Shown: piece by piece, positions 16,882 through 41,639 of the stretch
Layout of the letters: each line of letters starts with the position of its first letter
How positions within the stretch are numbered: position 1 is the stretch's first letter
NCBI GenBank assembly: GCA_948144175.1
Contig: CANXME010000034.1
Span: 1 to 64,000 of the forward strand
Origin: Closterium sp. NIES-65
Taxonomy: Eukaryota; Streptophyta; Zygnematophyceae; Desmidiales; Closteriaceae
Direction of reading: 5' to 3'
Length of the DNA stretch: 64,000 nt
Program-made: the position numbers and the translations under genes
The notes under the pieces: model-generated
Databases searched by the model: none
What the model was told of the DNA's origin: nothing
The model's input: only the letters and a program-made list of their open reading frames with translations

Positions 16882-17500
16882 CATGCCACCATTTGGCTTG
16901 TTGCGTCGTGTTCTGTAGTAGCTATTGTTCAACGCGTCGAACTGTTCGATCAGTGCTGCCCGAAACTGCGTCCACGTCCCTTTGCCTTGGACAAATTTGT
17001 TCTTGATCCACTCTAGAGCTGGGCCACGTAGCAGTGTTGCTGCGAACCGTATGCGCATCGCGTCTTGGGTAGGGGTCATGCATCCAACGGCTTCGAAGTA
17101 ATTTTCGAGCTCAGCTACGAATCGACAAACGTCGCTCCCTTTAACTATACGATCAAACGCCTCCGTAGCCTCGGCTTCACTGCTTCGAGGTTAACTATAG
17201 CTGCTGCCGTTGTCGCAGATTAAATTTTCGGTGTCGTCGCCGTCATTGTTGTTGCTTCTACGGCTACCGATTGGTTCGCAAGGAGTTTTTTGAGTCCTCG
17301 GAGCGCCGCACGTATCTGCTCATGCTCGGCACCTAACTCCGCGATTTTCCGTACAAAACTATCTCTCTTTCTCTCGATTTGGCGATCTACAGGAAGATGT
17401 GCGACGAAACTAAATGAATTCTAGGTGCTGGTCGACTTACTGCGAGACGATTTGACTGTAGAATCGACAAGCTCAATTTCTATACGTCGCGCAATTCTCC
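16882..17500 (-). mobile_element. Ty3/gypsy family G, copy G2, gag piece
   Basis: Minus-strand gag fragment with RIRFAATLLRGPALEWIKN and FRAALIEQFDALN. The same RLAATLLRG core opens the G3 gag at 52302. It is cut at 16882 by the A1 5' LTR. Orientation and family fit it being the 5' part of the copy whose pol end lies at 644-2226. Upstream (17080-17500) the coding signal fades; I see only degraded gag or 5' leader. Confidence 0.65.
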
Positions 17501-17681
17501 TGTCGGATCCTCACCACTCCCTTCTACCTTTGCAGTCCTTGCTCCTTCGGCTTCCTTCCTCTCTCCCAGTACCACCTTCTCCTAGTATCACTCCTGCTCT
17601 CGTGCCTCCCTCCCTCCCCTTTTCACTAGTGCTCTCGTGCTTCCCTCCCTCCCCTTGTCACTAGTGCTCTTGATGCACTCA
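17501..17681 (-). repeat. Solo LTR of the methyltransferase-bearing element family
   Basis: TGTCGGATCCTCACC...TTGATGCACTCA, 181 bp, flanked by CTCC on both sides (17497-17500 and 17682-17685), a plausible 4-bp target duplication. It matches 25620-25870 end to end except that it has about two fewer units of a 35-bp internal repeat. TG...CA ends and the shared boundaries argue that this is one LTR unit. An alternative is a shared fragment of a longer LTR. Confidence 0.6.
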
Positions 17682-17685
17682 CTCC

Positions 17686-17879
17686 GATGAGCACTGGCTC
17701 CCTCACATAACTCTATCTCCACAACCTACTAATTACACCATGGCTTGTGATATCTCCTTCTAACCACTACTTGCTTCATCAAGTGCAAGAATGTCGTGTA
17801 GTGAAGGAACATACAAGCATTGAGGCTAGCTCTGTAAGAATCCACCTGTTCTACCAGATCTGTCACCACCAGGAGTCCT
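17686..17879. other. Unassigned DNA left of A3
   Basis: About 200 bp with no repeat partner or coding signal that I can see. It continued directly into 25120-25619 before A3 inserted. It could be host DNA or a family-G leader. Confidence 0.4.
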
Positions 17880-18007
17880 TGTCAAACTCATATGCTATAG
17901 TCTGTGTAGGCTGTAGTGGGGTAGACAATATGGGGTACAACACTTATAGGTTTTCCTACTTGTACCCACCTGCTTTCTAGTTCATTCATTCCTTCCTGAT
18001 TTCTTCA
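17880..18007 (+). repeat. 5' LTR of copia-A copy A3
   Basis: 128 bp, TGTCAAACTCATATGC...CATTCCTTCCTGATTTCTTCA. It is followed two bases later by the primer site TGGTATAGAGCAGGTTCCC. Confidence 0.88.
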
Positions 18008-18009
18008 CC

Positions 18010-18024
18010 TGGTATAGAGCAGGT
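18010..18024 (+). other. Primer-binding site of copia-A A3
   Basis: TGGTATAGAGCAGGT, two bases after the LTR. Conserved in all family-A copies that keep their 5' end. Resembles the initiator-Met primer site of plant elements; identity of the tRNA is not certain. Confidence 0.6.
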
Positions 18025-18099
18025 TCCCTAGTGGGAACGCTTCTCAGGGCCCACCACTAATTTTTTTTTCCTGACCGGAGCGCGAGTCGCCCCTGCCCG

Positions 18100-18900
18100 A
18101 GGCGCGCCCCGTTGGCCGCCCTCACGTCGCCTCTCACGGCCCCCTCGCGCCACCCTTAGCGGCCCCGTTGCCACCCCTTACGGCCCCGTCGCCGTCCTTT
18201 GCGGCCCCGTCGCCGCCCCCTCTAGGCCCCTCGCGGCCCCTTCGCGGCCCCGTCGCCGCCCCTAGCGGCCCCGTTGCCGCCCCTAGCGGCCCCGTCGCCG
18301 CCCTTCGAGGCCCCTCTCGGCCCTTTTGCGGCCCTGTCCCCGCCCCTAGCGGCCCTGTCGCTGCCTCTAGCGGCCCCGTCGCCGCCCCTATCGGCCCCCA
18401 CGCCGCCCCGATCGACCCCGTCGCCGCCTCTAGCGGCCCCATAGCCGCTCCTACCGGCCCCGTCGCCGCCCTTTGAGGCCCCTCGCGACTCCTTCGCGAC
18501 CCCGTCGCCGCCCCTAGCGGCCCCGTCGCAGCCCTTCGAGGCCCCTCTCGGCCCCTTTGCGGCCCCGTCGCCGCCCCTATCAGTCCCGTCGCCGCTCCTA
18601 GCGGCCCCGTCGCCAACCCTATCAGCCCCGTCGCCGCCCGTAGCGGCCCCGTCGCCGCCCTTCACGCCCCCCCCCCTTCAGCTGCCAAGCGGCCAAACCA
18701 CGGAGCCGCCGAGCCGCCCAGCCGTGGAGCCGCCCAGCAGCCGCGCCACCCAGCAGCCGAGCCGCCAAGCTGCCGAGCCGCCCAACAGCCGAGCCGCCCA
18801 GTAGCCGAGCCGCCCAACAGCCGGGCCGCCCAGCAGCCGAGCCGCCGAGCTGCCGAGCGGCCGAGCCGCCGTCGAGCCGCTACTGTGCCTACCAGCCCGC
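18100..18900 (+). repeat. GC-rich leader array of A3
   Basis: About 800 bp without a gene: repeats of GGCCCCGTCGCCGCCCCTAGC (about 18150-18660) followed by CCGAGCCGCCCAGCAG-type repeats (about 18690-18880) up to the gag start region. The two zones are in the same order as in A2. Confidence 0.82.
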
Positions 18901-18955
18901 ACCGGCCCTTCCTACCCGAACTGGTGAGAGCACTCCCTGTTAGACCACTGCTGTC

Positions 18956-20210
18956 ATGGCTACCCCCAGTGTCCTTACCTTCGATGCTGAGGGTCGTGCT
19001 GTTGACTTTGAGGTCTGGGTCGATGACCTCCAGCTCTTCCTACAGCGCAATAGGGCAGACGGACTCTCCTTGTTTGATCTCACCTCTAGTGCCTCTCCTG
19101 CCCCGCCTGCTACTGCTTACAGCACTGTTTGCTCACAGTGGGCCACACGCGATGCTGCTGCCCGTATTGCTGTGCGTCGCCACTTACCGACCGCTGAGCG
19201 TGCGCACTTTAGTCAGTACAAGAGTGCTAAGACCTTGTACGACGCTGTAGTTGCACGCTAATCTTCCCCTGCCACTCCTGCTCTTAGCCGCCTCACGCTG
19301 CCGTACCTGTTCCCTGACCTTGCTGCCTTTCCCACAGGCGCTGACCTCATTACGCACCTTCGCACTAGTGACACTCGCTACCGCGCTGCGCTTCCTGCTG
19401 AGTTCTGTGCAAAGAACCCTCCCCCCATGTACATCACCCTCTACTACATAGTCACCTGACTCCCTGACTCCCTTCGCTTAGTCAGGGACCACTTCCTCTC
19501 TGTTTTCCCCACCACACTCACCGTTGACCTCCTCGAGGAGCGCCTCCTAGCAGAAGAGAAAGCATAGTCGTTGTAGGAGCCTCTCTTGGTGACCCTCGTA
19601 CCCCCGTCTTTGAGGGGTGTTCCCCCTCCCCCCTCTTGCCCGCTGTTGCTTCTGCAGCTGCGGCCGACCTCGTTGGTTTTGAGTCGGTCGGTGCTGCGTC
19701 TGCCCCTAGCGGGAGACGCCGCACAGGCAAGAGCAAGGGGGGCAAGGGCGCTTGAGGGGCTGGCGGGGTCGGTGGAGGTGGCGGTGGAGGCAGTGGAGGG
19801 GGTGGGGGTGGTGGTGGGAATGGTGGAGGGGGTGGAAGTGTCGGTGGCAGCAGTGGAGGCGGAGGAGGCGGCGGCGGTGGCGGTGGGAGCGGAGGCGGCG
19901 TAGGCGGCGGCGGTGGCGGCGGCGGTGGAACTGGTCGCGGCTCTGCACAGAGGAGTGGCTCCGGTGGTGGTCAACGCTAGCAGCAGCAGCGCACTCGTGA
20001 GACCCCGTCACCCCAGCAGCTTCGTGAGTGGTACGCTGCGCGTCAGCGAGGTGGGGGTACTGGTCCCTGTACCTACGTCCTCTGTATCGGAGACCGCGCT
20101 GGTGAGCAGTGCGGGGGCTCACACTCCACCCAGCGCTGCTTCGGCCGCCTAACGGACGCTTGGCGTCACAAGTTCCCTGACGCCCTTGAGATCCCTCGCT
20201 ACGGAGAGCT
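18956..20210 (+). pseudogene. Copia-A A3 gag
   Basis: ATG at 18956 opens MATPSVLTFDAEGRAVDFEV, then WVDDLQLFLQ, GLSLFDLTSSASPAPP, AERAHFSQYKSAKTLYDAVV. Later come the RYRAALPAEFCAKNPP region, the LTVDLLEERLLAE-like helix, a polyglycine tract (about 19755-19930), and the CTYV...GEQCGG...H...C zinc motif near 20060-20140. This copy and A2 agree on the start. Broken in a few places. Confidence 0.87.
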
Positions 20211-20269
20211 GTCTAGGGCGGGGGTTGCTATCTTTGATCTTGACCATGATGCTATTCTTGCTGCCATGT

Positions 20270-20650
20270 ATGCTGTGTGTGCTAGTGATGAGGGTGACTG
20301 TTACCTGTGTGTTCCGCTTGGCCGGGGCATTGAGGCTGCTGCTCTAGGTGCTGGTGAGGCTGCTGCTCTAGGTGCTAGTGCGTCTGCTGCCCCAGGTGCT
20401 GGTGAGTATGCTCTCTCAGGTACAACGTCGGCTTAGGCCTTACACACCTTCACCCTTGACTCGGGTGCTTCCCGCTCCTTCTTTCGAGACCACACCACGC
20501 TTACGCCGCTTAGTCGGCCGGTTGCGGTCTCCCTGGCGGACCCCTCCGGGGGTCCTGTCTTTGCTCGCTTCTCCACTGTCTTACCGTTTCCGGCAGCCCC
20601 CTCTAGCAACCTGTCAGGTCTCTACCTCCCCTCGTTCCCTACAAACTCGG
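20270..20650 (+). pseudogene. Copia-A A3 protease
   Basis: MYAVCASDEGDCYLCVPL leads into Ala-rich repeats with GAGEAAALGASASAAPGAG, then the active site TFTLDSGASRSFFRD near 20450-20490 and LSRPVAVSLADPSGGPV. Position between gag and integrase is that of all copia elements. Confidence 0.82.
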
Positions 20651-21870
20651 TGAGTGGTGCTGACCTACACGATGGGGGGCTTGACCAGTTCACTCCTGCG
20701 AGTCAGCGGGTGACCCACTGCACGTGTGCTTGGAGGAGCCGACACTTGGCCACGTTTACCCGTTGGCCGGGGTCAAGCCTGTACACACTGACTATTGAGT
20801 CTCCTCCGGTTGCTGAGTCTGGTCAGGTAGCTGCGTCGAGTCTGGTGTTTGCTGCAGCGTCTAGGTCTGGTCCTGAGTCTACGCCCTGCTCGTGTCGTTT
20901 GCTGTCCCACCAGACTCTCCTTTGGCACCACCGCCTTGGTCACCCCTCCCTGCCTCGTCTCCGAGGCATGGCCTCCCATGTTCTTGTCTCTGGTCTTCCC
21001 CGGTCCCTACCTCCCCTACCTGGGTCCTCTGCGTCGAAGGGCGACAGCGCGCCGCCCTCCACTCCTCCGAGTTTCCTCCGACAGAGGCTCCGCTGCAGAC
21101 TCTTCACATGGACGTGTGGGGCCCCGCCCGCGTCCGTGGCCAGGATCACGAGCGTTACTTCTTGTTGGTGGTTGACGACTACTCGCGTTACACCACGGTG
21201 TTCCCCTTGCGCAGCAAGGGTGATGTCACTGAGGTGTTGATGGACTGGATCCGCGCAGCTCGTCTCCAGATCAGAGAGGGTTTCGGCTCGGACTTTCCTG
21301 TTCTGTGTCTGCACTCTGACAGAGGCGGGGAGTTTTCCTGTGGCCGTCTGGGAGCCTTCTGTCGTGCACAGGGCATCCGCCAGACCTTCACGCTTCCGGC
21401 CTCTCCACAGCAAAATGGGATTGCTGAGCGCCGCATTGGCATGGTCATGGACGTTGCTCGTACGTCCATGTTCCATGCGGCTGCTCCCCATTTTCTGTGG
21501 CCGTTTGCGGTTCAGTACGCAGCGCATCAGCTCAACCTTCAGCCCAGGGTCTCCTTGCCAGAGACCTCCCCCACCTTGCGATGGACGGGGAAGGTTGGCA
21601 ATGCATCTGCGTTTCGGGTCTGGGGATCTTGGGCATTTGTCCGCGACTTGTCTGCGGACAAGTTGTCCCCCCGTGCTGTTCCCTGCGTTTTCCTTGGCTT
21701 CCCCCCTGACGCGCCTGGTTGGCAATTTTACCACCCCGCCTTGCGCCGTGTTTTGTCCTCCCAGGACATCACCTTTGACGAGTCGGTGCCTTACTACCGT
21801 CTCTTCCCCTACCGCACTGCGCCCCTCCCCCCGCCGCCGCTCTTCCTTGCGCAAGGTCCTCCCCCGGTAG
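20650..21870 (+). pseudogene. Copia-A A3 integrase
   Basis: Zinc region SHQTLLWHHRLGHPSLPRL near 20905-20970 with CVEGRQRAALHSSEFPP later. Core: LHMDVWGPARV (first Asp), LVVDDYSRYTTVFPLRSKGD, CLHSDRGGEFSCG (second Asp), SPQQNGIAERRIGMVMDVAR (Glu). C-terminal: FVRDLSADKLSPRAVPCVFL, PDAPGWQFYHP and ITFDESVPYYRLFPYRTAPL. The frame stays open from 20892 to 22463, the longest integrase-linker frame of the family here. Confidence 0.88.
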
Positions 21871-21879
21871 GTGTGTCCA

Positions 21880-23280
21880 AGGTAGACGCAGTTGAGCCTG
21901 TCGAGGTAGCTGTTGACTCTAGTGCTGCTAGGGGAGCTGAGCCTGCGTGTGCCGGGTCAGGGGGTGCTGAGCCTGGGGGTGCGGAGCCTGGGAGTGCTGA
22001 GTCTGGGGGTGTAGAGCTTGGGGGTGCTGAGCCTGGCGGTGCTGAGCCTGGGGGTGCTGAGTCTGGGGGTGCTGAGTCTGGGGGTGCTGAGCCTGGTGGT
22101 GCGGAGCCTGGAGGTGCGGAGCTTGGGGGTGCTGGGTCTGCTTCGTCGAGGCGGGAGCTACTCTCTCCGAAGGAGCTGCGCGATTGGTTTGCCCGCCGCT
22201 GGAGCCGTGCTGCAAGAGCTGGAGGTACTACTTTTGCTCCTGGTCCTGTAGGTGCTCGTACTGGAAGTACTGGAGCTGCTGGGACTGGGGGTGCTGCTGG
22301 GGCTGCTGGAGTTAGTCCTGCAGGAGGTACTGCTGGAGCTACTGGCGGTGCTGGAGCTGACGGTCGTGCTGGAGTTCGTGCTATTGGAGCTGTTGGAGTT
22401 GGAGCTGCTGGGTGTGTTCGCGCTGGTGGTTCTGCTGGCGCTGGTGCTTCTGAGGGTGCTTGAGTTGGCGCTGTTGGAGCTGGAGGTGCTGCTGGCGCTG
22501 GTACTGCCGCTGGGGGTACTGGTGCTCTCCCTTCTTGTTCTGGAGGCGCTGCGCGGCCGAGGCCGTAATTTGTTCCGCTCCTTGAGCAGGTTCTTGGTCT
22601 CCCGCCCTCTATTGGTCCTGCTCCTCCCTTAGAGTGTCCATAGCCTGTCCAGTTACGGTCACAGTTCCAGCCAGCCTCCCCCCTACCAGCTCCTTCTCCC
22701 TACACTGGTCCTACTGGAGGTCTTGCTGAGCGTTGTGAGCCTACGTCTCGTCCTGCGTTGCCTATTCATGCTGCTCGCACTAGTGGTCGTTCTCCGCGTC
22801 CGCGTCCTCCTACGGTCCCCGGCACACACCAGATGGCACTGCGTCCTTCCACTACTCCTCTGCGTGTCTCGTTGCCGTCTCCTCCAGAGTCCTCTCTTCC
22901 TACTCTTGCTAACCTGGAGTCTGACTCTCTTCGTGCTGTCTGTCCTCCTGTCACGCGTCTCCTGGCTACTCTTGTCACTGACCCTTCTTTTTAGTCCACT
23001 ACTGCGTCTGCCTTAGTTGCTGAGCTTGTTGACTTTGCTGCTCGCTGTCGTCTAGACTACGCTGCTAGTCTTGTTGCTGAGTCTGAGTTTGTCTGTCCTC
23101 CGTCCGTCGGGGGTGAGTGTGCTCTTAGCGCGGACGTCCTTGAGGACAGGCAGGAGGAGTTCTAGTGTTTTGCTGCTGCTTTGCCTCATCTTGTGTCCAC
23201 GGTGATTGCCCCTGAGGGAGACCCGGATGCACCAGACATCCTGACTCCTCGATCGTACGCTCAGGCAATCGCAGTCAGCC
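21880..23280 (+). pseudogene. Copia-A A3 linker with GGAEP repeats
   Basis: SKVDAVEPVEVAVDSSAARG leads into GGAEPGGAEPGSAESGG repeats (21950-22130), the conserved SSRRELLSPKELRDWFARRW helix, a Gly/Ala-rich zone (22210-22540) and a Pro-rich zone. Then follow SFESTAASALVAELVDFAA-like and CPPSVGGECAL sequences shared with other copies. The conserved islands between repeats argue that the linker is translated as part of the polyprotein. Confidence 0.75.
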
Positions 23281-24794
23281 ATGGACGCAGAGATGGCTTC
23301 CTGGAAGTCCACAGGCACCTACGTTGACGAGGTTCCCCCACCTGGGGCGAACATCGTCACTGGCATGTGGATTTTCAGGGTGAAGCGGCCGCCAGGTTCT
23401 TCGCCTGTCTTCAAGGCGCAATACGTGGCTCGAGGCTTCAGTCATCGGCAGGGAGTTGACTACTTTCAGACCTTCTCTCCCACCCCGAAGATGACCACTC
23501 TTCTGGTGGTGCTGCACATAGCCGCTCAGCGTGACTACCAGCTTCACTCTCTTGACTTCAGCACAGCTTTCCTGCAGGGCAGCCAGCACGAGAAGATCTG
23601 GCTGCGCCGCCCACGTGGCTTCACTGGGTCGTTTCCTACTGGTACCCAGTGGAGCCTCCGGCGGCCAGTCTACGGTCTCCGCCAGGCGCCCCGTGAGTGG
23701 CACGACACACTGAGGACTACACTTGCGGCTCTTGGGTTTGCTCTGTCTACTGCCAACCCGTCGCTGTTTGTGCGCACCGACACCTCTTTGCCGCCGTTCT
23801 ACATCCTCGTGTACGTCGACGACTTGGTCTTTGCCACTGCTGATACTGCTGGACTCGCCCACGTGAAGTCCGAGCTGCAGAAGAGACACACGTGCACAGA
23901 CCTGGGTGAACTGCGCACCTACCTTGGCTTGGAGATCACCCGGGACAGAGCACAGCGCACCATTACCCTGACTCAGTCACACATGGTGCAGCAGGTCCTT
24001 TAGCGCTTCGACTTCACGTACTCCTCGCCTCAGGCCACTCCTCTGTCTACTCGCCTCTCGCTCTCAGCTCTGCCTTCGCATGAGTCCGTAGAGCCGAGTG
24101 GCCCGTACCCAGAGCTTGTTGGCTGCCTCATGTACCTGATGACCTACACACGACCTGACCTAGCATACCCTCTTAGCATCTTGGCACGCTATGTTGATCC
24201 TGGGAGACACCGACCAGAGCACATGGCTGCAGCGAAGAGGGTGTTGCGCTACTTGTGCAGTACGTCGGGCATGGGGCTAGTGCTTGGAGGGCGACGTCCA
24301 GTGGTCCTCATAGGTCACGCAGACGCTTCTTGGGCTGACGACCAGGCTACGCAGTGGTCTTCACAGGGTTACACCTTCAGCCTTGGCTCCGGCTCTGTTT
24401 CGTGGCGATCTACCCGCTTGTCTTCTGTTCTAGGCCCCAGCTGTGAGGCTGAGATCTACGCGGGGGCCATGGCTGCACAAGAGCTACGCTGGCTCACCTA
24501 CCTGCTGACTGACCTAGGAGAGCCGTCCTGTCTCCTCCAGCTCTATACGTAGACAACAAGGCCATGCTGGCCTTGTGTCGGGAGCACAGACTTGAGCACA
24601 GAATGAAGCATATTGCTCTTCGCTGCTTCCTTGCTCGTGAGCTGCAGCAGCGTGGTCAGCTGCGCCTTGCTTACGTGGCCTCTGAGGCCAACACTGCTGA
24701 TATCTTTACCAAGGCACTTCCGCCTTGTAATCATCAGCGCTTCTGTACGATGCTAGGTCTTGTGCCTACTTGGCCTCACTTGCTCACTTCTTGA
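23281..24794 (+). pseudogene. Copia-A A3 reverse transcriptase and RNase H
   Basis: RT: MDAEMASWKSTGTYVDEVPP, GANIVTGMWIFRVKRPPGS, YVARGFSHRQGVDYFQTFSP, LHSLDFSTAFLQGS, YGLRQAPREWHDTLRTTLAA, LVYVDDLVFATADTA and DLGELRTYLGLEITRD. RNase H (24130-24794): GHADASWADDQATQWSSQGY, SWRSTRLSSVLGPSCEAEIY, MAAQELRWLTYLLTDLGE and VASEANTADIFTKALPP, ending LVPTWPHLLTS. The C-terminal end at 24794 is the same as in A2, which fixes the stop. Broken in a few places. Confidence 0.88.
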
Positions 24795-24991
24795 CCTTGC
24801 TTGTACTGTGATCTTTCTATACCTGCACTTGCTTGTTTACCTTTATATATGATCTTGCATGTGAACTGGCCTTGTGGCCTTGCTCTTGTGCTCGGACTAT
24901 GTGGTGACGTTGTGATCCACCCTGAGCTTGCTTTGCTTTGCTTGACTGGTCTTGTGACCTCTTGTTCTCCCCCACTTTGACTATGGGGGTG

Positions 24992-25119
24992 TGTGAAACT
25001 CATATGCTATAGTCTGTGTAGGCTGTAGTGGGGTAGACAATATGGGGTACAACACTTTTAGGTTTTCCTACTTGTACCCACCTGCTTTCTAGTTCATTCA
25101 TTCCTTCCTCATTTCTTCA
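24992..25119 (+). repeat. 3' LTR of copia-A copy A3
   Basis: 128 bp, three differences from 17880-18007. Preceded by CCCCCACTTTGACTATGGGGGTG, the polypurine tract also found before the N1 right LTR. Confidence 0.88.
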
Positions 25120-25619
25120 TAGTCCTCTCCCTCCCTAGTCTTCTCGCTAGCAGCTATTGCTACTTTTGAGAAGATAGACATCCCTGCTGCCTTTTGCCAC
25201 TGTCACCCGCCTCTAGCTACCTTGTCTCCAGCTGGGACTGCCAGATCCAGCTGGCTTCTGGGAGCTTGCCTGCACACACACGGAAACAAACACACATTCA
25301 AACGAACACTCATCCAAGTGCCTGTGGTAACCGCCCTGCCTCCGCTGCCACTGCCCTGTGCTGTAATTCGCACTTGAGTCCACGTCCTTCTCACGCCTGT
25401 CCCGCCCTGCCTGCTTCCCATGCCTTCCCCGACCCTTCGCTTCGGCAGACATCCCCAACCCCCAAGTCTCTCAAGCTCCCTTCCCTACCCCAACCGCCGC
25501 TTGACCCTTCGCTCCTCATCCTTGGCACTGCCTGGCTCACTATTTACAATATGTACACTTTGTACATTCCACCCTTGCTCTCCTTGCCTTACTCTTCACA
25601 TACATATAAATGTGACAGC
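25120..25619. other. Unassigned DNA between A3 and element M
   Basis: About 500 bp, C-rich on the + strand, with a CACACACACGG run near 25271 and a short AT-rich zone (25540-25615). No coding signal in either strand that stands up. It was contiguous with 17686-17879 before A3 landed. It may be the only host DNA in the window, or a part of M or G2 that I cannot place. Confidence 0.4.
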
Positions 25620-25870
25620 TGTCGGATCCTCACCACTCCCTTCTGCCTTTGCAGTCCTTGCTCCTTAGGCTTCCTCCCTCTCTCCCAGTACCACCTTCTC
25701 CTAGTATCACTCTTGCTCTCGTGCTTCCCTCCCTCCCTTTGTCATTGGTGCTCTCGTGCTTCCCTCCCTCCCCTTGTCACCCGTGCTCTCGTGCTTCCCT
25801 CCCTCCCCTTGTCACTGGTGCTCTCGTGCTTCCCTCCCTCCCCTTGTCACTGGTGCTCTTGATGCACTCA
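25620..25870 (-). repeat. 3' LTR of element M
   Basis: TGTCGGATCC...GATGCACTCA, 251 bp. Its right edge adjoins a purine tract on the coding strand (CATGGGAGGGGGCAGGAG), as expected for a 3' LTR. It shares both edges with the solo copy at 17501-17681. Boundaries are inferred from these two facts. Confidence 0.6.
25715..25861. repeat. 35-bp minisatellite inside the M LTR
   Basis: Unit GCTCTCGTGCTTCCCTCCCT continuing with CCCCTTGTCACTGGT. Units start at 25715, 25750, 25785, 25820 and partly 25855. The solo LTR has only about two units (17595 and 17631). Confidence 0.85.
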
Positions 25871-25979
25871 CTCCTGCCCCCTCCCATGACCAGCTACTGC
25901 TGTCCTCGCCCTGGTCATGGGACCAGCATATGCCTGCGCCTTCTTAGCCTTCCTAGCCACGTTAGTCACATGATCCATG

Positions 25980-27250
25980 ACTCGCTTGCCTCCCTCCTCT
26001 AGCACCAATACTCCTGATTCCCGCACCTCCTTCACAGTCCACCTCTACTGGGACACGCTGAGGTCCAATCCATCCTTCTTTGCTCGCCGCACATACACTT
26101 CCTGCCCCACGTCCACTCTTTGCTCTCCTCCTTGCATCTTCTCCAGCTGTCGCTGGCAATAGCGGTGAATGTCCCGTAGCTTTTCCACCTTCAGGTTCTC
26201 CATTGCGGCCGGCAGCATCTTCTTGAGGTATACAGTGCGCGCATCTGCCAGCGCCACCCACTTCTCTGCTGTCCCTGCTGAGACGCTCTCGGTGAGCAGC
26301 CTGGGTGCTCACCCAGGCAGTATCGGCTGCTTCCCAAACAGTAAGTAGTAGGGCGACACATCCTTGAGGGCCGCCTGCTTGCTGAACCTGTACCCAGGGC
26401 AACTTCTTGTCCCAGTCCCCCTTGTGTGCCTCTCCATACACTCTCAGGCCCTTCTTCACTGTCTGAACCAATCTCTCAGTCAGCCCATCAGCCTGTGGGT
26501 GGTATCGCGAGGTGGTGCGGTGCTAGATCCCGTTGGAGGCCAGCAGCTCCTCGAATTCTCCCTGCAACTCTGTCCCCTGATCCGTTAGTACCTCTCCGCA
26601 TGCCCCACATCGCGTCAGCACCATTTCCTTGAGCGCCTCCGCCACTGCTGCTGCGGTCTTGCTCACCAGTGCTCGTGCCTCTGCCCACTTGCTCACATGC
26701 TTGATCATGAGCACAGTGTACCTCCTTCCCCTCTTGGACACCGGAAGCTCCCCTGCTATGTCTAGTGACCAGCGGTACCCTAGCTCCACGATCGCCAACG
26801 GCTGCAGCTCCGCTCGACTCCTCAGCAATGTTGCCTTCTTCCTGCAACAGAGTTCGCACTTCTCCACCCACTCCTTCACCTCCTTCCTCATTCCTGCCCA
26901 CCACCAGGCGGTATGCAGCAGCTGTACTGTGCGCAGCGGGCCGAAGTGCCCCATCTTGTCGTGCACCTCCTTGATGATCGCTGCTCGCTCCGCTGGCTCT
27001 GGCACTCGCTTCCACCCCTCCTTCGTCCGTAACTGCACCTGCCCCTGGTACCACCTGTAGTGTTGCCCCCTTGCCCTGGCTTTGCTTCTTGCTCCCCCAT
27101 CCTCACCTGTCTCCCCCTTGATCCAAGCGAGGGTCTCCTCATCTTGCCACACGTCCGCCGCCTTTCCCCTTGGTTCTCCTTCTGCCCCCTTTTCCTTGAC
27201 CATTGCTGTCAAGGCCGCGGCTGGCTGCTCCTTCTCTGGATCACCTTGCT
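25980..27250 (-). pseudogene. Element M integrase
   Basis: The HHCC zinc domain is visible (EVHDKMGHFG, then LLHTAWWWAG and KCELCCRKKA, about 26830-26980). The core has RWSLDIAGELPVSK and VLMIKHVSKWAEARAL, then VLTDQGTELQGEFEELL. The C-terminal region (26045-26260) has LKVEKLRDIHRYCQRQLEKM and GQEVYVRRAK, like the SH3-type tail of Ty3 integrases. No chromodomain was recognised. Broken. Confidence 0.82.
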
Positions 27251-27329
27251 CTTTCTCTCTGGGGGGGTTGCGCGAGAGCCCATATACGTGTTGCATGGTC
27301 TTGCCAGGGCGATTCTTCACTATGAAATT

Positions 27330-27707
27330 TTACTCTTGCAGCTTCATTGCCCATCGCGCGTTCCGCCCTGTCAGCACTTGGTTCTGCATTAGCCACAGTA
27401 AGGGCTGATGATCTGTCACCAATGTGAAGTGCCTCCCTTGTAGGTACACCCGAAAGTGCCCCACCACCCAAACTGCCACCAGTCCTTCTCCCTCGTAGGA
27501 TGAGTAGTTAGCCTCTGCAGGGTTGCATGTCTTGCTAGCAAATGCCACCACCTTTTCCTGCCTTGCCTCCATCTGACTCAGCACTGCCCCCATTCCCACG
27601 CTGCTCCAATCTGTGTATAGCACAAAGGGTGTCTTCCTGTCTGGCAGTTTCAGCACTGCTCCCGCCTTCACCGCCTCCATCAGCCCCTTCAGTGCCGCTT
27701 CCTGCAC
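27330..27707 (-). pseudogene. Element M RNase H
   Basis: Ty3-type RNase H: PFVLYTDWSSVGMGAVLSQM with the first catalytic Asp, KVVAFASKTCNPAEANYSSY, EGEGLVAVWVVGHFRVYLQG and FTLVTDHQPLLWLMQ. It follows RT directly, as in all Ty3/gypsy elements. Confidence 0.87.
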
Positions 27708-27716
27708 CTCCTCCCA

Positions 27717-28868
27717 CTACCATTTCTGATCCTCTCTCAGCAGCTTGTTCAGCGGCGCCGCTTGCTTGCTGAAGTCAGGAATGAACTTCCTGTAGTAGTT
27801 CAAAAACCCTAGTAGTGCTCTCAGCCCACTCCTATCCTTCGGGCGCTCCACCCTATCCAGCACCTTGACCTTCACCTTCTGTATGCTCAGCTCTCCCCTG
27901 GCCACTTCAAACCCCAGGTAGGCCACGCTGCTATGTCCGAAGCGGCACTTGCCTAGATGACACGTTAGTCCTGCCGCCTGAATGGCTGCCAATGTAGTTT
28001 CAATGTCCTCCACATGCTTCTCGTTGTCCGCACTAAAGATGATGACATCATCTATATAGCAGGCCGCTCCCTTCACCTCCCTCTGCACCGTTTCCATCAC
28101 CCTCTGAAAGACTGCTGAGGCATTCCTCAATTTGAACGGCATGAAGTTCCATTCATAGAGTCCGTCCGGGCCGTAAAATGCCGTCTTCTTCTTGTCCTCT
28201 TCTGCTATTGGGATTTGATTAAAGCCCTGCCTTAGGTCCAGCGTTGAGAACACCCAGCTACCGTGCAGCTGGTCGAATATCTCCTCCGCCATGGGCATCG
28301 GGTAGCGGTCTGTGGCTGTTACTTTGTTTGAATCCTGGTAATCCCCACACATCCTCCTAGACAGCACCATTCCCATTAGGTCTGTTCTCGCGGCCACCAC
28401 AGTCGCTGCTGCGTAGTCTGACGCCGACCTGCGAATTAATCCCGCGGCCAACAGTTCTTGACATTTTGCCGTGCACACCTCTATATCCTGCGGGCTCATC
28501 CTCCTCCGCCTCTGATACACCGGTACTTCGCTCGTCAGCGGCAGGCGCATGGTGCTCATCGTGCACTTCCCCAGTTCTTGTAGGTTATGAGCAAAGACGT
28601 TCGCGTATTGCCTTAGCACTGCCTCCACTTTTATCGCCGCTGTCCCTTGTAGGGCCGCACCGATGTTCCATGTGTGATGCCTCTCCTCCCCTCCTGCTGC
28701 TTCCTGCCCTCCTCTCGCTGCTGCTGCTCGGGGTGTTGGTCCACCGTCTCTGTCCGCCTGCTCGCCTCCTACCTCTTCTCTCTCTAGGGCCTCGTTCGAG
28801 TCTGCTGCCTGCCTCTCCTCATTCTCATTCAGCAGCGCCACGTATGCTCTGCTCGGGCCCAAGAACAC
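27717..28868 (-). pseudogene. Element M reverse transcriptase
   Basis: An open stretch of 383 residues. Positions: SEVPVYQRRRRMSPQDIEVC (about 120), YAAATVVAARTDLMG (about 165), DRYPMPMAEEIFDQLHGSWV and FSTLDLRQGFNQIPIAEEDK (about 200-230), FMPFKLRNASAVFQRVMETV, ACYIDDVIIFSADNEKHVED with the YIDD active site (about 285), then YLGFEVARGELSIQKVKV and LRALLGFLNYYRKFIPDFSK. The N-terminal 100 residues are acidic and not recognised. Confidence 0.9.
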
Positions 28869-29262
28869 TTTGTCGGTGTCTGAAATCTATCTCTCTGTAG
28901 GATCCTCCATGCCCTCACTGTCCCAGTCCATTTCTGGTTTCCCCCCACTCCTCTGATTCCTCTTCTTCCTCTCCTTGATCTGGATAACTTCCTGGGATTC
29001 CGTTCCTATCATCCAACACCCTGTCCATTCTCTTCTCTTGCGGTACTTCCCTTCACCTCTCTTCCCATGCCTCCTCCTCTAGGTGTGCCAACAGTATCTT
29101 GGACTCCTGCCTCTTTATCTCATCCTGCTCCATCCTTGGGTCGGCCCTCTCCGCATGATCCCTTCTCCTCTCCAGGCGCTGCTTCTCTAGGTGTCAGTTC
29201 ATCACTCCTACTAGCCAGTGCAGCGCGTTGAGATCCATAGCGTTGCCTAGTGCTCTCCTGCG
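28869..29262 (-). other. Spacer between methyltransferase and RT in element M
   Basis: About 390 bp in the pol region that I cannot assign to a domain. It is rich in Glu/Arg codons on the minus strand. It is probably translated linker; no motif seen. Confidence 0.5.
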
Positions 29263-30168
29263 CTATCGCTCAGTCACCTCGCTACTCGCCATGGCTCCTG
29301 CCATAAATCCCATTGCTAGCTTGCGTTCCAAAGCTGTTGGTTCCTCCCAAACTCCCTTCAGTCTGTCAAACACCATCCCTGGACCTTCTCTGCCGTCTTC
29401 TATCTTGAACCCCCTTGCCTGCTCATGCGCCACCAGCGTGGGCCATGCCTGTCGAGGCTTCCCCACCCTATTGCACGGGAATTGTGTCTCATGATCAGGA
29501 TGCCTCACCGGCGCCGGGATTCTTGCCAGTTCCAGAATGTCCTGCACCAGGCGCGCGCGCGGCCGTTCCATCAGTGAGAGTCCGTACTACAGCGCCGCCT
29601 CTGTTACGACGTTTTGCCAATACCTGCACGGCCTGTGCGCCCTGCTACTGTTCTGCGCCGCATCCCACGCCACTCCTGCCCCCAGCTCTGCCCTGATCTC
29701 TTCTTCTGCACTCTTCACATCTTCCCGCATATCGTCCCGCGTGTCCACGTTTTCTACTATGTATGCCACTTCTCCCTGTTTCCTCTTGACCATCTTCAGT
29801 ATGCGTACTAATTCCCTGAACAGTCCGCTTCTAGGGTCCTCCATCCCTCTTCCTTGCCCGGCCCTGGACAGGCCTTGGCATTCCCACCCAGCTATCACTA
29901 GATCCACGTGCCCCCAGTGTGCCAACGCATCCTCCTTCACATCCTCTACCCGATGGCATACCCATTCAGCCCCTTTCTGCACGGCAGTCGCATACAGCTG
30001 TAAGGGGTACCTCTCCTCCAGTTTCTTGATGTGATGCCACGCCATGCGGTCTGCTGCCTCATCGTTCTCTACGTAGATATATTTTGCTACCCTTAGTCCC
30101 GCCTTTAGCACTGCCTTCAGCCCGGTGCAGATGCCCGCAAACAAATCCAGCAGTACTATTGGCCTCTG
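29263..30168 (-). pseudogene. C5 cytosine DNA methyltransferase domain inside element M
   Basis: The stretch 29587-30468 starts with the end of the retropepsin and then, from about its residue 100, shows C5-methyltransferase motifs in the usual order. Motif I: VLLDLFAGICTGLKAVLKAG (AdoMet binding). Motif II-like: IYVENDEAADRMAWHHI. Motif IV: HVDLVIAGWECQGLSRAG, with the catalytic Cys in ECQG. Motif VI: AYIVENVD, with the Glu of ENV. Motif VIII-like: NSSRAHRPCRYWQNV. The segment 29263-29571 has RQAWPTLVAHEQARGF and EPTALERKLAMGFMAGAMAS, like the C-terminal part of DNMT3/DRM-type enzymes. The region is interrupted at least once. The enzyme class moves a methyl group from AdoMet to cytosine C5 in DNA. 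The subclass is my inference from the motif VIII and C-terminal words; phage-type or host-derived origins are both possible. Confidence 0.82.
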
Positions 30169-30419
30169 GAGCACGCTCCCATCTAAGTGCAGTTCCTTCA
30201 GTGGCTTGCTTTCTCCCCACTGCTGACGGTACCTGTCTCTATGCCTCCGCTCTTCATCCAGTTCTTCCCAGCTGAGTATCCCTAGCTCCTCTTCTACTGT
30301 CCGAACCTCCGCCTGGTACGCCTCTCGGGGTTCTCGTTGGATGAATCTGACGGGCAGCTCTGCCACTGGCCTGCTCTTCTCCCAATATTCCACTCGGTAT
30401 GTAAGTCTCTCTTCCCACA

Positions 30420-30775
30420 TGCATATGGTGGCGCCAATGCTGTACAGGAACTCCACTCCCAATAACAAGTCCTAATCCTCAGAGGGCGAAACTCCGCACT
30501 ACAGCTTCACCGAACATTCCTCTGGGCTTCCCTGCCACATGAAGAGCTTCACCGTACTCCTGGTCTTTGGCATCCACTTCGTACCTCCTCCCTCTGCTGT
30601 CATCAACAGCAACCCTTCTTCGATCTGCCGCTCGGGGCGGTCCACCTGCAGCTGCTGCGCGAGCCTCCTCCCAATCAACACTGGATGCGCCCCGGTGTCT
30701 ATGATTGCTTGCTTTACTGAAACGCCTCCCGCTGTTAAGTACCCCTTTTCTGCCACTAGTACCGATGCTGCATAG
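30420..30775 (-). pseudogene. Element M retropepsin
   Basis: AIIDTGAHPVLIGRRLAQQL carries the DTG active site of a clan AA protease, with LSYAASVLVAEKGYL before it. The C-terminal LLGVEFLYSIGATI, an ILG/LLG-type flap-end motif, lies at about 30430-30470 just before the methyltransferase. Confidence 0.8.
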
Positions 30776-30839
30776 CTGAGGCGCTCCAGTGGATGGCGGA
30801 GCGGGGGATGCAAGTCCTCCTCTGTTTCTGCCCTTCTCC

Positions 30840-31982
30840 TAGGGCCCAATTCCCTCCGTGCCTCCACGCGCGGCCTCAGGTTCCGCTCCCGTGTCCTCAA
30901 TCCCAACTCCTCCTGGTCCCTCGCCGGCCACGCCAGCGATGAGACAGAAGTCTTCCTCACTGCTCTCCTCTTCCTCTTCCCTCGCCACCATGACAGGCTT
31001 CCTCTCACTACCCGCCTCGCGTCCTTCTAGCTGTGCCCGTAACCTCTCAATCTCCGCCTTCATCTCCGCCATCTCACCTCTCTCACGCTTCTCTCCCCGC
31101 CCTTCTCCTCTTTGCGAGTAGCACTCCCGTTCAGCGTGTCCCCTTCTCCCACACTTCCCGCACACCGGCGCCTCCGGAAAGTCACCCCTCTGATGATCTT
31201 CTTGTCCGCAGATTGAGCACGCGGGAGGGTTCCGGCAGTCTCGCCTCAGGTGCCCTACCTGCCCGCAGTTGTGACACTTGCAAGGGTCACCCGAGCCTCT
31301 TGGCGGCCTCTCTCTTTCCACTGGAGCTGCACTCCATGCTGGCCTCCTCCGCTCTGCCGTCCGCTCCGCCGTGCGCTCCACTTCAAACAACCTTCTCCCC
31401 GTTTCCACTCTCTTCGCCATTTCGTACGCCACGCTAAACGTTGCTCTGGCTCTCATCTCGAAGATCTTCACTTGCACGTCCCTCTGTAACTCGTAGTTGA
31501 GGCTGTTCAGGAACTTGCTGACGAGGCGACCCTGGTCCACGCAGTTCATGTCTTCGGCTAGTTCCACGAGCCGTCCGTAGTAGGCCAACAGGGACTCTCC
31601 CGCCCTTCGCTTGAATTCGCGGAATTCGACCACTCGCTCCGGTGTCTGCAGCGGGAACTGCTCTCGCAGTATCTCCAAGAAGCACTTGGTGGGGACTCTC
31701 TCTCTCGGTCTAGCCTAAGCCGCCTAATCCAGTAGCTCCCACCTGCAGATGCTGTAGTAAGTTTCGGCCTCTCCCGTCAACGTGTTCGCCAATCCCCGAA
31801 AGAATTCATCCGCATCTAGACGATCGCGTTCCCATCGTGCCCGCAAATTCTCTAGCTGCATCAAGTAGTCCTTCAAGGATGGACCGCGTTGGACTTCTCC
31901 TGAAAAGCGCTCCGACACCTCCACTTTTGGGAGCATGGTGTAGCGCCAACGCAACAACGCTGCGTCGTCCTCAAAGCCTTGC
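30840..31982 (-). pseudogene. Element M gag with three zinc knuckles
   Basis: A retrotrans_gag domain: VSERFSGEVQRGPSLKDYLM, then FRGLANTLTGEAETYY (about 31740-31900), REQFPLQTPERVVEFREFKR, ESLLAYYGRLVELAEDMN and FLNSLNYELQRDVQVKIFEM. Three zinc knuckles follow (about 31110-31280): CHNCGQVGHLRRDC, a second starting CSICGQEDHQ, and CGKCGRRGHAERECY. A coiled stretch AEMKAEIERLRAQLEGR comes next, then an acidic tail. Three knuckles is more than the usual one or two. The start of gag is lost at the copia-C junction. Confidence 0.87.
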
Positions 31983-31999
31983 CATGATGCGCTGCGCCG

Positions 32000-33479
32000 G
32001 AACTGCCCCTCACTCCTCTTTTCCGCTTGACTTGCTACTGCGGTGTCGCCATGACTCCTCCATAGACGAAAACGTAGCCGCCCGTGCTTGTCCGATTCTG
32101 TTTATCGCCACCGTCGTCGGCATCTGCATAGCCGACCAAACACAGCGACTCTGGTCCGCCGCCAAACTCCAGAGCCGCGTCACGGGTTTCAGCGAGGTAG
32201 TGCAGACAGTGATCGACTTCACGCCAGTGGTTGTCGCTCCGCACTGTCAGGCCGAATCCGAGCTTGCTGCAAGCGAAAGCAATGTCAGGCCTCGTCGTGG
32301 TGGCCGCGAACTGCAGCGAGCCGACCTTTTGCTGGTACTCTACTTCCTCGCGCGACTGAAACTCCTTGTCGTCGAACAACAGCTCTGCGTAGGCGTTGAC
32401 GGAAAACGGCGTCTTCGGCACTCGCCCCGTCTGCTCCTCGTCGATGAAACGTCGTCGCAGCTTGTCGACTTAGACTTGCTAGTGAAGCCACAACTTCCTC
32501 GCAGGACGGTCACGCACGATCTCCAGCCCCAGATACTTCTCGACTGGGCTGATTTCGCGCAACTCAAAGGCGGCCTCCAGCAGCTCCTTCAGCATCGCAG
32601 TGCTGCTGCTTGCGGCGAGCAGGTCGTCGACGTAGACGAGCACCCAGCACGCCACTCCGTTGTCGCCAACCTTGAAGTAAAGCGCTTCGTCTACCTAGCT
32701 CTTGCTCCAACCAGCGCGGATCATCACCACGTCGAGAGCCGAGTACCACAACAGCGGACTCTGCTTCAAGCCGTAAAAGCTCTTCAGCAGCTTGCAGACA
32801 CGACCGAGGTCGTCGTTGTAGTAGTCAGGCTGGTACATGTAGAGGACGCGATCGAGCTTGCTCTACAGAAACGCATTTTCATGTCCATCTGCATCAAGTG
32901 CAATTCAAGGACGGCTACAATGCTATGGAAGATCCGCAGAGTTACGTAGCTCCCCACCGGCGCGTACGTCTCGTCGTAATCTGCACTGTAGACCTGCGTG
33001 AAACCTTTTACGACCAAGCGGGCCTTCTTGCGGGCGACCGTGTCGTCGACGTGGTACTTCGTCGCGAGCACCCAGCAGTTCTTCATGATGTTGACACCGT
33101 GCAGACGCTCAACTAGCTCCCACGTCCCGTTAGAGACGAGACTCTTGATTTCCTCCTCCATGGCCGCTTTCACCGCCTTGCCCTTCCAGCTTGCCAACGC
33201 CTCTTTCACCGTCATGTTGGCGATGTCCCAGCGATGCTCTGGGTTGTCGTTCATGTCGGAGTCGAGCTCGGGGAGATCAACGTCGTCCTCTGCGTCATCG
33301 AGCAGAGTGCTGTAAGGCGTCGGTGGCAGAAAAGCGTAGAAGCTCAGCTTCTCCGGGGGCTTGCCGATGTTGGGGCGGGCAGACTGTCGTGGCTGCGCCT
33401 TTTCGACCGCGATCTCTACTATGTCGCTGTCGTTGAACAGCTCCCCTTCATCGCCACCGGTCGCACTGACGACTTCCAC
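32000..33479 (-). pseudogene. Copia-C reverse transcriptase and RNase H
   Basis: RT N-terminus: EALASWKGKAVKAAMEEEIK, SNGTWELVERLHGVNIMKNC, KARLVVKGFTQVYSADYDET and YAPVGSYVTLRIFHSIVAV. Further left come the palm region, the QKVGSLQFAATTTRPDIAFA motif and RNase H words LVGYADADDGGDKQNRTSTG. Related to plant Tnt1-like copia by general motif wording. Broken. Confidence 0.8.
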
Positions 33480-36943: not shown

Positions 36944-37129
36944 TACTTTCCTAGTTCACCCTGCTTTTCGAGGGTATTTTGGTGGCACGAGTGTGGTTGG
37001 TTTAGTGACTACACGACGGTTGGTTGTAGGGATTGTTAATTCAATCTTGCCCGACTTCGATAGTTCGTGTTTTCACTTGCCGGGAGGCCACGGGTACCCG
37101 ACTGCCCACCAGACGTAGTGCAAGGCACA

Positions 37130-38100
37130 TGGATCAGGAGGCTATTAACTGGCTGATGGCGCAAGTGGCAGAAATGAAACAGGGCATGGAATCATTAATG
37201 GCGGAAGTGACAACGTTATGGGAGGAAAACGCCGAGCTATGCCAAACGCGAGGTGAAGCGCGTCAGGATTCGCTTGTGGACGAAGGCGAGGGCAACAGTC
37301 AAGCGATGAGCAATCTGCTGGATGCGCTCACACGTAACTTTGAAGAAGAAGATAGGCAGGGAGCGGAAGCAGCGCCTGTTGCAGTGACGACGATCAAGAT
37401 AAAGCCCGTCAACCCGCCCCCGTTTAATCTTACGGACAAGACGGTTACGGTAAAAGGGTGGCTGTTCGGGGTCGAAGTCTTTTTCACTGCAGCCGGAGTT
37501 AATGACGACGTCACGCGTATTAATTACGCGGTTTCGCTTCTTCGAGGTGCAGCGCTTGAATGGTGGCGCCGAACCTTGGAAACAGGGACGTCGATAGGTG
37601 TGACATATGCGGCAGACGGGACCTCTACAGTGGTTAATCAAGTGGCAGGACCAATCTTTGGTGTGACCAAGATACGCACGTGGAAGGAGTGGGGCGCAGC
37701 CTTACGGAATCGCTTTGAGCACTTATCCGCCTCAGAACAAGCTCGCATGAAGCAGCGTGCATGGTCATAGATGGCTTTTGTCCAAGACTACACTGCGTCA
37801 TTTATGGGCTTCGCCGACCAAATCGATGACATGTCGGAAGCAGAGCGGTTGGATAAGTACGTCAGCGGCCTTAAATATGAGATACAGTTTGAGGTCCGCC
37901 GAAGCCGCTCGACATCGTTCCTCGAAGCAGTGCGCGAGAGCAGCTTCCAGGGATGGGAGAATCTTTCGTGGCCAGACCCATCGGGCCACAATCAACGCCG
38001 TCCATACACCCGACCGCCCTCCTAAGGGTCCGTGTTTTTGGTGTGGGAAGGTGGGTCACTACAGGAAAGACTGCCAGGAGAAAATGCCGCTGACAGAGGA
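37130..38100 (+). pseudogene. Chromovirus H gag
   Basis: MDQEAINWLMAQVAEMKQGM opens at 37130 with a coiled-coil-like start. Then come PPFNLTDKTVTVKGWLFGVE, NYAVSLLRGAALEWWRR, EWGAALRNRFEHLSASEQAR (retrotrans_gag core), YVSGLKYEIQFEVRRS, and a single zinc knuckle CFWCGKVGHYRKDCQEKM at about 38028-38085. Broken. Confidence 0.87.
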
Positions 38101-38259
38101 CGACAGGAAGGAGCAGGGAAATGGGAAGAGTCAGTAATTAGCGGGCCCTTTACTGACTGTGCTCCATCGCCCAAACACCATCATCCCCACCGAGTCGTGG
38201 TTCTGATTCATGCAATCGATCGCACTCGGCCGAATAACGGGGATACACATGTGGATCAC

Positions 38260-38550
38260 CCAGTGCTGGTCGCTGGCAAGGTGTTCAAAAATAATTTGAA
38301 AATGTTCGTCGACGGAGGGGCAAGCCATAGCCTCTTCAATTTGGCGAGCGCAAAAAGATGCAAGCTGCAACTTGACAGGTGTCTGCCCAAAATCGATGCA
38401 CGCCTCGTGGATGGGACGCCTCTGGCGATAACGGAAGAAACACAGACGGTCAGGATCGACTGCGGCGACGATTTCGGCTTCAGCATGAAGTTTCTCGCGA
38501 CAACATTGGACGGCTGCGACGTGTTGCTGGGACGTGATTGGCTGCAATGA
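38260..38550 (+). pseudogene. Chromovirus H retropepsin
   Basis: MFVDGGASHSLFNLASAKRC is the active-site region, DARLVDGTPLAITEETQTVR follows, and CDVLLGRDWLQ is the C-terminal ILGxDWL-type motif. Confidence 0.82.
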
Positions 38551-38799
38551 CACAACCCCGTCATCGACTGGACAACGGGATCGTGCAGCATCAGCAAGCA
38601 CGAGGGGCTAATTCGGCTTCCTGCATGGACACCTGACTACATCCAAGCCCCGTGCGTCAAAGCCATCACTATAGCTCGCCACTTCAACAAGGGCACGCAG
38701 CTGTTTGCTGTCTGCTTACGCGAGTTGGCAGTCGACACCGACGGAAAGGACATTGAGAAGTTGTGTGCAGCTGTACCTCCGGATATAGCGGAGCTGATT

Positions 38800-39483
38800 T
38801 GACAGTACCCCGACATTTTCCCGGACGACCTGCCACCTGGGCTGCCACCCGAGAGACCCGAAGACCATAAAATCCAGCTGCAGCCTGGCGCGCAACCAAC
38901 TGTTCGGACACAGTGGCGGTTGACCCAGCCGGAACTCGAGGAGCTGTGTTGACAAATTGACACACTGTTGGAGAAAGGGTTCATTCGGGCGAGCACCTCC
39001 CTGTTCGCGGCACCGATCCTGTTCACTCCGAAGAAGGACGGTGGGCTTCGCATGTGCATCGATTATCGCGCGTTGAACTGGGTGACCATCAAGTCTCGCT
39101 ACCCAATCCCACGCACCGTCGACCTTCTTGACCAGCTTCGCAGCGCTCGCTACTTCTCGAAAATCGACTTACGTGGCGGTTACCACCAGATTCGGGTCTT
39201 CGCCGACGATAGTCACAAAATCGCGTTTCGCACACGCTACGGGAGTTACGAATTCACGGTGATGCCTTTCGGCCTCACGAACGCGCCTTCCACATTTCAA
39301 CTGACCATGAACAGGGTTTTTCAGGATCTTATAGACCATTGCGTCATCGTCTATTTTGACGATATCCTCATTTTTAGCAAAACAAGAGAGCAGCACCTCC
39401 GTGACCTGGATGCAGTGTTTAAGCGGCTGCAGGAGAACCGACTCATCACCAAGGGTTCTAAGTGCGAGTTTTTTAAGCAGGAG
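38800..39483 (+). pseudogene. Chromovirus H reverse transcriptase, 5' part
   Basis: [100 protein letters not shown] and IVYFDDILIFSKT (YFDD active site) are all in order. It ends at KCEFFKQE where N1 is inserted. Confidence 0.9.
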
Positions 39484-40902: not shown

Positions 40903-41110
40903 AAAAATCAAGACCAAACAGGAGTGGAAGTCCCCGACGAATGTCACGGAACTCCAGAGTTTTCTCGGATTCGTGAATTACGTCAGGCAGTTTTTCTGGA
41001 ATATGGCGAGGATAACCGGCCCGCTGACCGACCTGCTGCACAAGGACAGGAATTTTGTGTGGGGGGAGGAGGCAGAAGCGGCTTTCTAGGAACTCAAGAA
41101 TTTTCTGGTT

Positions 41111-41560
41111 TCCCCTCCTGTGCTGCGCATCGCCGACCCATCGAAACCGTTCGAAGCTGTCACCGACGCCTCAGATTTCACCATCAGAGCTGTGCTACTC
41201 CAAGATTTCGGGAACGGGTTGCAGCCGATAGCTTACGAATCACGCAAGCCGCAGGCGGCTGAACGCAACTACCCGATCCACGACAAGGAGATGCTCGCCA
41301 TCATACATGCGTTTAAATCATGGCGATGCTACCTGGTGGGCGCCGACGTCACTGTTCACACAGATCACAAGTCCCTACAGTACCTACGAGCCCAACCCAA
41401 CCTCAACCCACGACAGATTCGGTGGCTGGACTACATAGAGAGCCACTTCACCTACCGCATCACGTACAAAAAGGGGGCGAATAACATCGCCGTCGCACTG
41501 ACCCTACCGACAGTACAATCCGCTGCAGTACTCATCACCCACTCATAACTTCTCCGGACA
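41111..41560 (+). pseudogene. Chromovirus H RNase H
   Basis: PFEAVTDASDFTIRAVLLQD (first Asp), GLQPIAYESRKPQAAERNYP, IHDKEMLAIIHAFKSWRCYL, VHTDHKSLQYLRAQPNLNPR and RITYKKGANNIAVAL. Ty3-type RNase H. Confidence 0.9.
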
Positions 41561-41639
41561 CTTCCGGGTTGATAAAACCCAGAAACTACTGCACCGTCAA
41601 TACTATTGGCATGATTCCTCTAACAACAGGCAGCGCTAT

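Follow-up and report, generated by a model that had tools for sequence, protein, structure and literature searches.

A Ty3/Gypsy retrotransposon family of Closterium carries a DNMT3-type methyltransferase between split repeats and seems to integrate from DNA circles

The window, a stretch of 64,000 nucleotides from the zygnematophycean alga Closterium sp. NIES-65, carries on its minus strand a relic, one decayed member of a large Ty3/Gypsy family. The polyprotein of the family has the order Gag-protease-DNMT3-type methyltransferase-reverse transcriptase (RT)-RNase H-DDE integrase. In the relic a gag remnant with CCHC knuckles, its 5' part missing, lies at 30980..32002 (tblastn of residues 104-440 of the intact L039 polyprotein, 63%; Pfam zf-CCHC at 9.4e-8 in ORF 30839-31714). 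The retropepsin-like aspartic protease at 30499..31026 matches Asp_protease_2 at 1.3e-4 and 23 bits, slightly below the cut-off of 24.3, and its position is homologous to that of the protease of intact copies. The DNMT3-type C5 methyltransferase domain, with in-frame stops and ECQ in motif IV, occupies 29194..30168. It is followed by the RT at 27717..28886 (RVT_1, 3.2e-27) and an RNase H region at 27332..27716, located by tblastn of L039 residues 1171-1954, which covered 28745-26391 at 64%; RT_RNaseH was found by Pfam in the L039 polyprotein. An H2C2 and DDE integrase core lies at 26523..27329 (Integrase_H2C2, 1.3e-17; rve, 7.1e-8) and the C-terminal part of the integrase at 25799..26434 (tblastn of L039 residues 1941-2147, 54%). 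All of these are on the minus strand, and the collinear CCHC gag, protease, RT, H2C2 and rve domains bear out the original prediction that the methyltransferase lies between protease and RT of a Ty3/gypsy element on the same strand.

The 3' side of the relic consists of split repeats, also on the minus strand. A polypurine-tract-like GGGAGGGGGCA at 25875..25885 adjoins repeat B1 on its upstream side, and the same or a similar tract precedes B1 in other copies. B1 extends over 25620..25874 with limits set by eye (25619-25789 matches 17500-17670 at 93.6%). Units of a 35-bp tandem repeat lie within B1 at 25698-25872. At the B1/A2 junction the palindrome GACAGCTGTC, our proposed integrase cleavage site, is found at 25614..25623; it occurs once in the window and stands at the same place in other copies. 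Repeat A2 begins with TGTC at the palindrome, and its first part (25120..25617) is separated from its second (17686..17879, assigned by position between the nested element and B2) by a plus-strand copia-type element at 17880..25119. This element is bounded by a 128-bp direct repeat (17880-18007 and 24992-25119, 97.7%), with copia-like ORFs between, recognised by eye. Repeat B2 at 17501..17685 forms the 3' end of the relic, and its terminal GACA was read directly. The window copy thus retains B1-A2-B2 of the split-repeat set; the matching repeat A1 and the 5' gag end were looked for in the window and not found. A second Gypsy element lies at 37030-42776, in which no methyltransferase was noticed and no terminal repeats were found.

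The C5-methyltransferase motifs I, IV, VI, VIII and X are collinear in one minus-strand frame (30150-29227) between protease and RT. Motif I is at 30121-30150, motif IV (AGWECQG) at 29872-29892, motif VI (IVENVD) at 29743-29760 and a motif VIII-like AHRPCRYWQN at 29611-29640. These four had been claimed for this region, and all were found there in a single frame. A motif X-like RRRALGNAMDLN at 29227-29262 lies just below 29263, the lower limit of the original prediction. The Pfam model of C5 methyltransferases likewise recognised the 294-aa open frame 29587-30471 (PF00145, 4.1e-9, 36.7 bits, cut-off 22). The methyltransferase frame is interrupted by stops at 29587-29589, 29263-29265 and 29194-29196. 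The window copy is therefore unable to make the whole enzyme and is dead. These stops, the split repeats and the circle signature described below were absent from the original prediction.

The tail of the domain had been called DNMT3/DRM-like. DRM enzymes have a rearranged motif order. A DRM type was rejected because motif I precedes IV, VI, VIII and X in one frame and the DRM profile (2e-7) is weaker than that of DNMT3A, the best family profile (1.1e-17). Only the DNMT3 half of the description therefore stands, and the fold of P0014 is in keeping with a DNMT3-type methyltransferase.

The coding pattern for GWECQG gave 681 matches in the Closterium sp. NIES-65 genome and 1 in a reversed control. 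Other copies also carry the domain in one open polyprotein. It is neither a chance match nor a one-off insertion, the case that would have refuted the original prediction. Raw copy counts are inflated by redundancy, since near-duplicate contigs exist: contig C93 is 99.75-99.8% identical to the window contig C34 at both places compared (in one, C93:56000-58000 corresponds to window 58088-60088 at 99.75%). PF00145 scored 123 places among 901 candidates in the same genome. On contigs up to C428, the range covered by the 100 ECQ places listed, 24/26 PF00145 places have the ECQ pattern when the two lists are compared. Of the two exceptions, the copy on C332 reads GWVCQG, and the one on C170 is a GGPPCQG exon from a different methyltransferase. 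The PCQ form had 2 genome matches, neither of them a methyltransferase. The C332 copy (L056, C332:1316200-1319300) has an unrelated N-terminal stretch and a 644-aa open frame, and is a chimera or possibly a domesticated gene. The C170 piece (L057, C170:1358900-1362000) is exon-like and contains GGPPCQGVSGFNRFRN; it probably belongs to a host CMT/DNMT1-type methyltransferase.

A host or viral methyltransferase gene could also have come to lie within a Gypsy element by chance, and the broken frame of the window copy, though nothing further, would fit this. Intact copies, further Closterium strains and P0046 all have the methyltransferase at the same polyprotein place, which refutes chance placement and makes its probability negligible.

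Proline in motif IV is replaced by glutamate in all 23 tree rows that come from the window, its own genome or Closterium, and also in P0041 and P0046. P0001 of strain NIES-54 has serine there (GWSCQG) and C332 has valine, suggesting that this residue tolerates change away from proline. The glutamate codons in 35 distinct contexts comprise 14 GAA and 21 GAG; since both are used, the residue is kept and not merely the DNA. Glutamate before the catalytic cysteine is unusual, being found in 0/49 viral enzymes inspected. The substitution could mean altered or lost catalysis. The methyltransferase may on this account be an inactive structural or nucleic-acid-binding passenger, ECQ being the mark of its lost catalysis, as the glutamate in those 23 tree rows and the serine and valine variants would allow. 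Against this, the open copies retain the catalytic cysteine, the ENV glutamate, the motif VIII arginine and the SAM-site motifs. The whole domain is open in 23/41 loci examined (L001-L041), some of which are duplicates of one place. Median dN/dS, also at odds with a passenger, was 0.072 over the 19 usable of 253 pairs (dS 0.05-1.5), with 17/19 below 0.2 and the other two at 0.381 and 0.384; the pairs are not independent, and the choice of open frames biases the ratio downward. Judged by Ka/Ks < 0.2 the methyltransferase is under purifying selection, which suggests that the enzyme matters to the element. We consider a passenger unlikely, though not strongly so.

The arrangement of the repeats was read in better preserved copies. 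L041 has a 1924-aa frame within A1-ORF-B1-A2-B2, its A copies being 99.5% and its B copies 98.5% identical. L040 shares the order A-ORF-B-A-B, which additional families show with sequences of their own, and split repeats are present in most copies whose ends were read. The L039 and L040 polyproteins contain RT, RNase H, H2C2 and rve by Pfam and combine the Gypsy set (protease, RT, RNase H, DDE integrase) with the C5 methyltransferase in the same frame. The tyrosine recombinase PF00589 was not found in either at E <= 0.001. Elements start with TGTC and end with GACA. Both ends were seen in 23 independent insertions. Of these, 22 have an exact 4-bp target duplication (CTGG, ACTC, TACC, GAGG, CATC, GTCA, GCAT, TGAA, GTAG, TGCC, AGTT, ATAC, CCAC, ACGC, TCTC, AACA, TTGG, GGTC, CTCA, AGAC, CGCT and AGTC), and in the other, C2199, 3/4 bases agree. 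Contig copies with the same flanks (C1639/C2251; C2276 with C1703/C1690; C1801/C2199) were counted once. DIRS/PAT elements are not known to make a target-site duplication. By class the 23 insertions comprise 16 A-ORF-B-A-B, 3 A-ORF-B, 3 A-B and 1 A-A'-ORF-B, with C2314 and C2122 classed from repeat spacing. Either 1-LTR circles or a later B1-B2 recombination could account for the A-ORF-B form. The solo A-B units (C1720, C1976, C595) have exact target duplications and keep the A|B joint, and are the counterpart of solo LTRs.

The TG..CA ends and 4-bp duplications resemble the outcome of ordinary Gypsy integration. Together with the solo A-B units, they would fit an ordinary LTR retrotransposon with A-B LTRs that was rearranged by recombination or deletion after insertion. 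Such an origin is very improbable. The same arrangement occurs in 16 independent insertions from several families, the outer ends are A and B with no identical LTR repeated at both ends, and the copies read included no AB-ORF-AB element. Furthermore, the polypurine tract directly precedes B1, and not A, in the copies read for it.

The two internal junctions behave differently. The B1/A2 junction is constant and consists of a 10-bp palindrome, GACA-GC-TGTC, which is exact in 16 copies (window, L040, L041, C62, C1532, C298, C343, C1523, C2075, C802, C2100, C542, C1690, C2144, C2292 and C2165). One base is changed in C430, and C334 has a repeat pair in the right stretch with no exact palindrome. 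The A2/B2 joint, in contrast, varies between insertions. In 14 insertions of the L041 group, where the joint edges were set by eye and some were taken from related copies, the edge is exact in 4/14 (L041, C2100, C2199, C1976) and has 1 additional nucleotide in 2/14 (C2075, C430). C2314 has lost 2 nt, and C802 has lost 8 nt at a 7-bp microhomology. In C1154 the joint includes GGGGGCA from the polypurine tract and one further G. C1690 combines a shortened B with about 274 nt of leader, and the second C321 place combines one with about 68 nt. Filler of about 17-19 nt is present in C1720 and of about 22 nt in C595. Two copies that are 99.81% identical differ by 1 nt at the joint. C1728, with the exact duplication GCAT, reads A, then a leader stretch of 7 to 12 nt, then A' (starting at 131), ORF and B; its left LTR lost B together with nucleotides 1-130 of A at the joint, and hence the palindrome. 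The A/B scars appear to resemble those of end-joined 2-LTR circles.

A templated replication model has been proposed for PAT/DIRS elements. Applied here, the RNA would run from A1 to B2, B1-A2 would be the template that completes the ends, and the A2/B2 joint would be copied like any other sequence. The order A1-ORF-B1-A2-B2 is that of PAT, Ngaro and VIPER (PMC6681497), and L041 and C2100 have an identical joint, as copying would predict. Sharply different joints within one group (C1690, the second C321 place, C1154, C1720, C595, C802) argue against templating, as does a joint that differs, by 1 nt only, between the 99.81% identical copies. The C1728 order would also be unexpected, and the element has a DDE integrase with target duplications in place of a tyrosine recombinase. 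Templated replication is thus improbable as the general explanation, although templating could also be a source of the 6/14 L041-group scars that are exact or have 1 additional nucleotide.

We favor integration from a DNA circle. RT would act in LTR fashion between the polypurine tract where B starts and a putative primer site where A ends, as the tract position and repeat edges suggest. With the tract ahead of B and a repeat edge behind A, the cDNA would have B.A repeats, the RT-made LTR, at both ends. End-joining of the two cDNA ends would then produce a 2-LTR circle and leave the A|B scar, which differs between insertions. The DDE integrase would cleave the palindrome GACA.GC.TGTC between B and A, a step suggested by the element ends, the constant palindrome and the duplications. 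If both strands of GACAGCTGTC were cut 3' of CA, the ends would have 2-nt overhangs resembling retroviral ends after processing. The opened circle would be inserted with a 4-bp target duplication, yielding A-ORF-B-A-B if the palindrome of the left repeat is cut and A-B-A-ORF-B if that of the right repeat is cut. C1728 has the alternative order predicted for cutting of the other palindrome. Several observations weigh against the cycle. Were both palindromes of the circle open to cutting, A-B-A-ORF-B and A-ORF-B-A-B should be about equally common, yet among independent insertions with a palindrome-bearing left LTR the former was found in 0 and the latter in 16. These 16, which have two A and two B copies each, would all derive from the left palindrome, so that something favors the left LTR. 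On inspection by eye no tRNA-type primer site was recognised after the 5' repeat, and no TGG start was seen. The C334 repeat pair has no exact palindrome.

The putative enzyme would most likely methylate the element's own DNA, for which the circle is the obvious substrate, and a methylated circle would resemble host DNA or be shielded before insertion. Methylation of own DNA before insertion has been proposed for published elements (PMC5890265), and it would be the simplest role in Closterium. The same paper reports that the nearest published methyltransferase gave no methylation in yeast, a result its authors called inconclusive. The cycle as a whole, from B.A cDNA through an end-joined 2-LTR circle and DDE cleavage at the palindrome to a self-directed methyltransferase, is in our judgment probably correct. 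A broader reading is tentative and somewhat doubtful. The end-joined 2-LTR circle may be the obligate integration substrate, the ends of RT and integrase being mutually permuted, with the DDE integrase opening a built-in palindrome and the captured methyltransferase acting on the circle. Where LTR-like retroelements have captured a methyltransferase (DIRS with Dam; SymbioDIRS, KnitGypsy and the Closterium family with DNMT3), the capture would then track a circular DNA stage and not RT lineage or integrase type. P0042 (1417 aa), a polyprotein that is DIRS-like by eye, has a DNMT3-like C5 methyltransferase and a Dam-type adenine methyltransferase (PF05869, 6.5e-12).

Retrovirology has long asked whether a 2-LTR circle can be integrated, and the joint scars of Closterium insertions make the question testable. 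The family has hundreds of copies, some with near-identical repeats, and carries the known range of retrotransposon-borne DNMT3 beyond Klebsormidium into the class of algae that is sister to the land plants. An insertion cycle that seemingly passes through a DNA circle gives a concrete hint at the reason these elements have retained a methyltransferase. The combination of DNMT3, a Gypsy element and DIRS-like repeats has already been described in K. nitens (PMC5890265). What seems new is the apparent mode of integration, from closed DNA circles. The literature, mostly at the level of hit listings, yielded no account of the Closterium family or its ECQ signature, and none in which DDE integration occurs together with split repeats, target duplications and joint scars.

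The closest known system is KnitGypsy-Dnmt3 of K. nitens (de Mendoza et al. 2018, PMC5890265, consulted in part), also from a streptophyte alga. It shares the Gypsy domain set, a DNMT3-type domain in the Pol frame, DIRS-like repeats and purifying selection on the methyltransferase. These likenesses support the proposal that the Closterium element belongs to, or closely parallels, the DNMT3-carrying retrotransposons of streptophyte algae, as the original prediction had it. K. nitens has fewer copies than Symbiodinium according to that text, whereas Closterium has hundreds. In the sections of PMC5890265 that were consulted, nothing was found on how the domains of the K. nitens element are ordered, on its motif IV residue, or on a palindrome, target duplications or joint scars. 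The sequence searches with the Closterium family brought up no entry named Klebsormidium. SymbioDIRS-Dnmt3 of Symbiodinium likewise has a DNMT3-type methyltransferase in Pol and A-coding-B-A-B repeats, but uses a tyrosine recombinase where the Closterium element has a DDE integrase, and DIRS and Gypsy elements are only distantly related (PMC5890265, in the part seen). PAT, Ngaro and VIPER, which share the repeat order, also have a tyrosine recombinase (PMC6681497, in part), unlike the Closterium element with its DDE integrase, TG..CA ends, 4-bp duplications and variable A/B scar. Ordinary Ty3/Gypsy elements have identical LTRs at both ends, whereas here the ends are A and B. The catalytic domains of animal DNMT3A/3B are about 18-20% identical to the Closterium methyltransferase and have proline before the catalytic cysteine, in contrast to the glutamate of an enzyme embedded in a retroelement polyprotein. 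Foamy virus and HIV-1 integrases cut the palindromic junction of 2-LTR circles (PMC1180852 and PMC1905944, as far as seen), which the Closterium DDE integrase may also do. In these viruses the palindrome is the LTR-LTR junction, whereas in Closterium it lies inside the presumed RT-made repeat unit, so that the ends made by RT would differ from those made by integrase.
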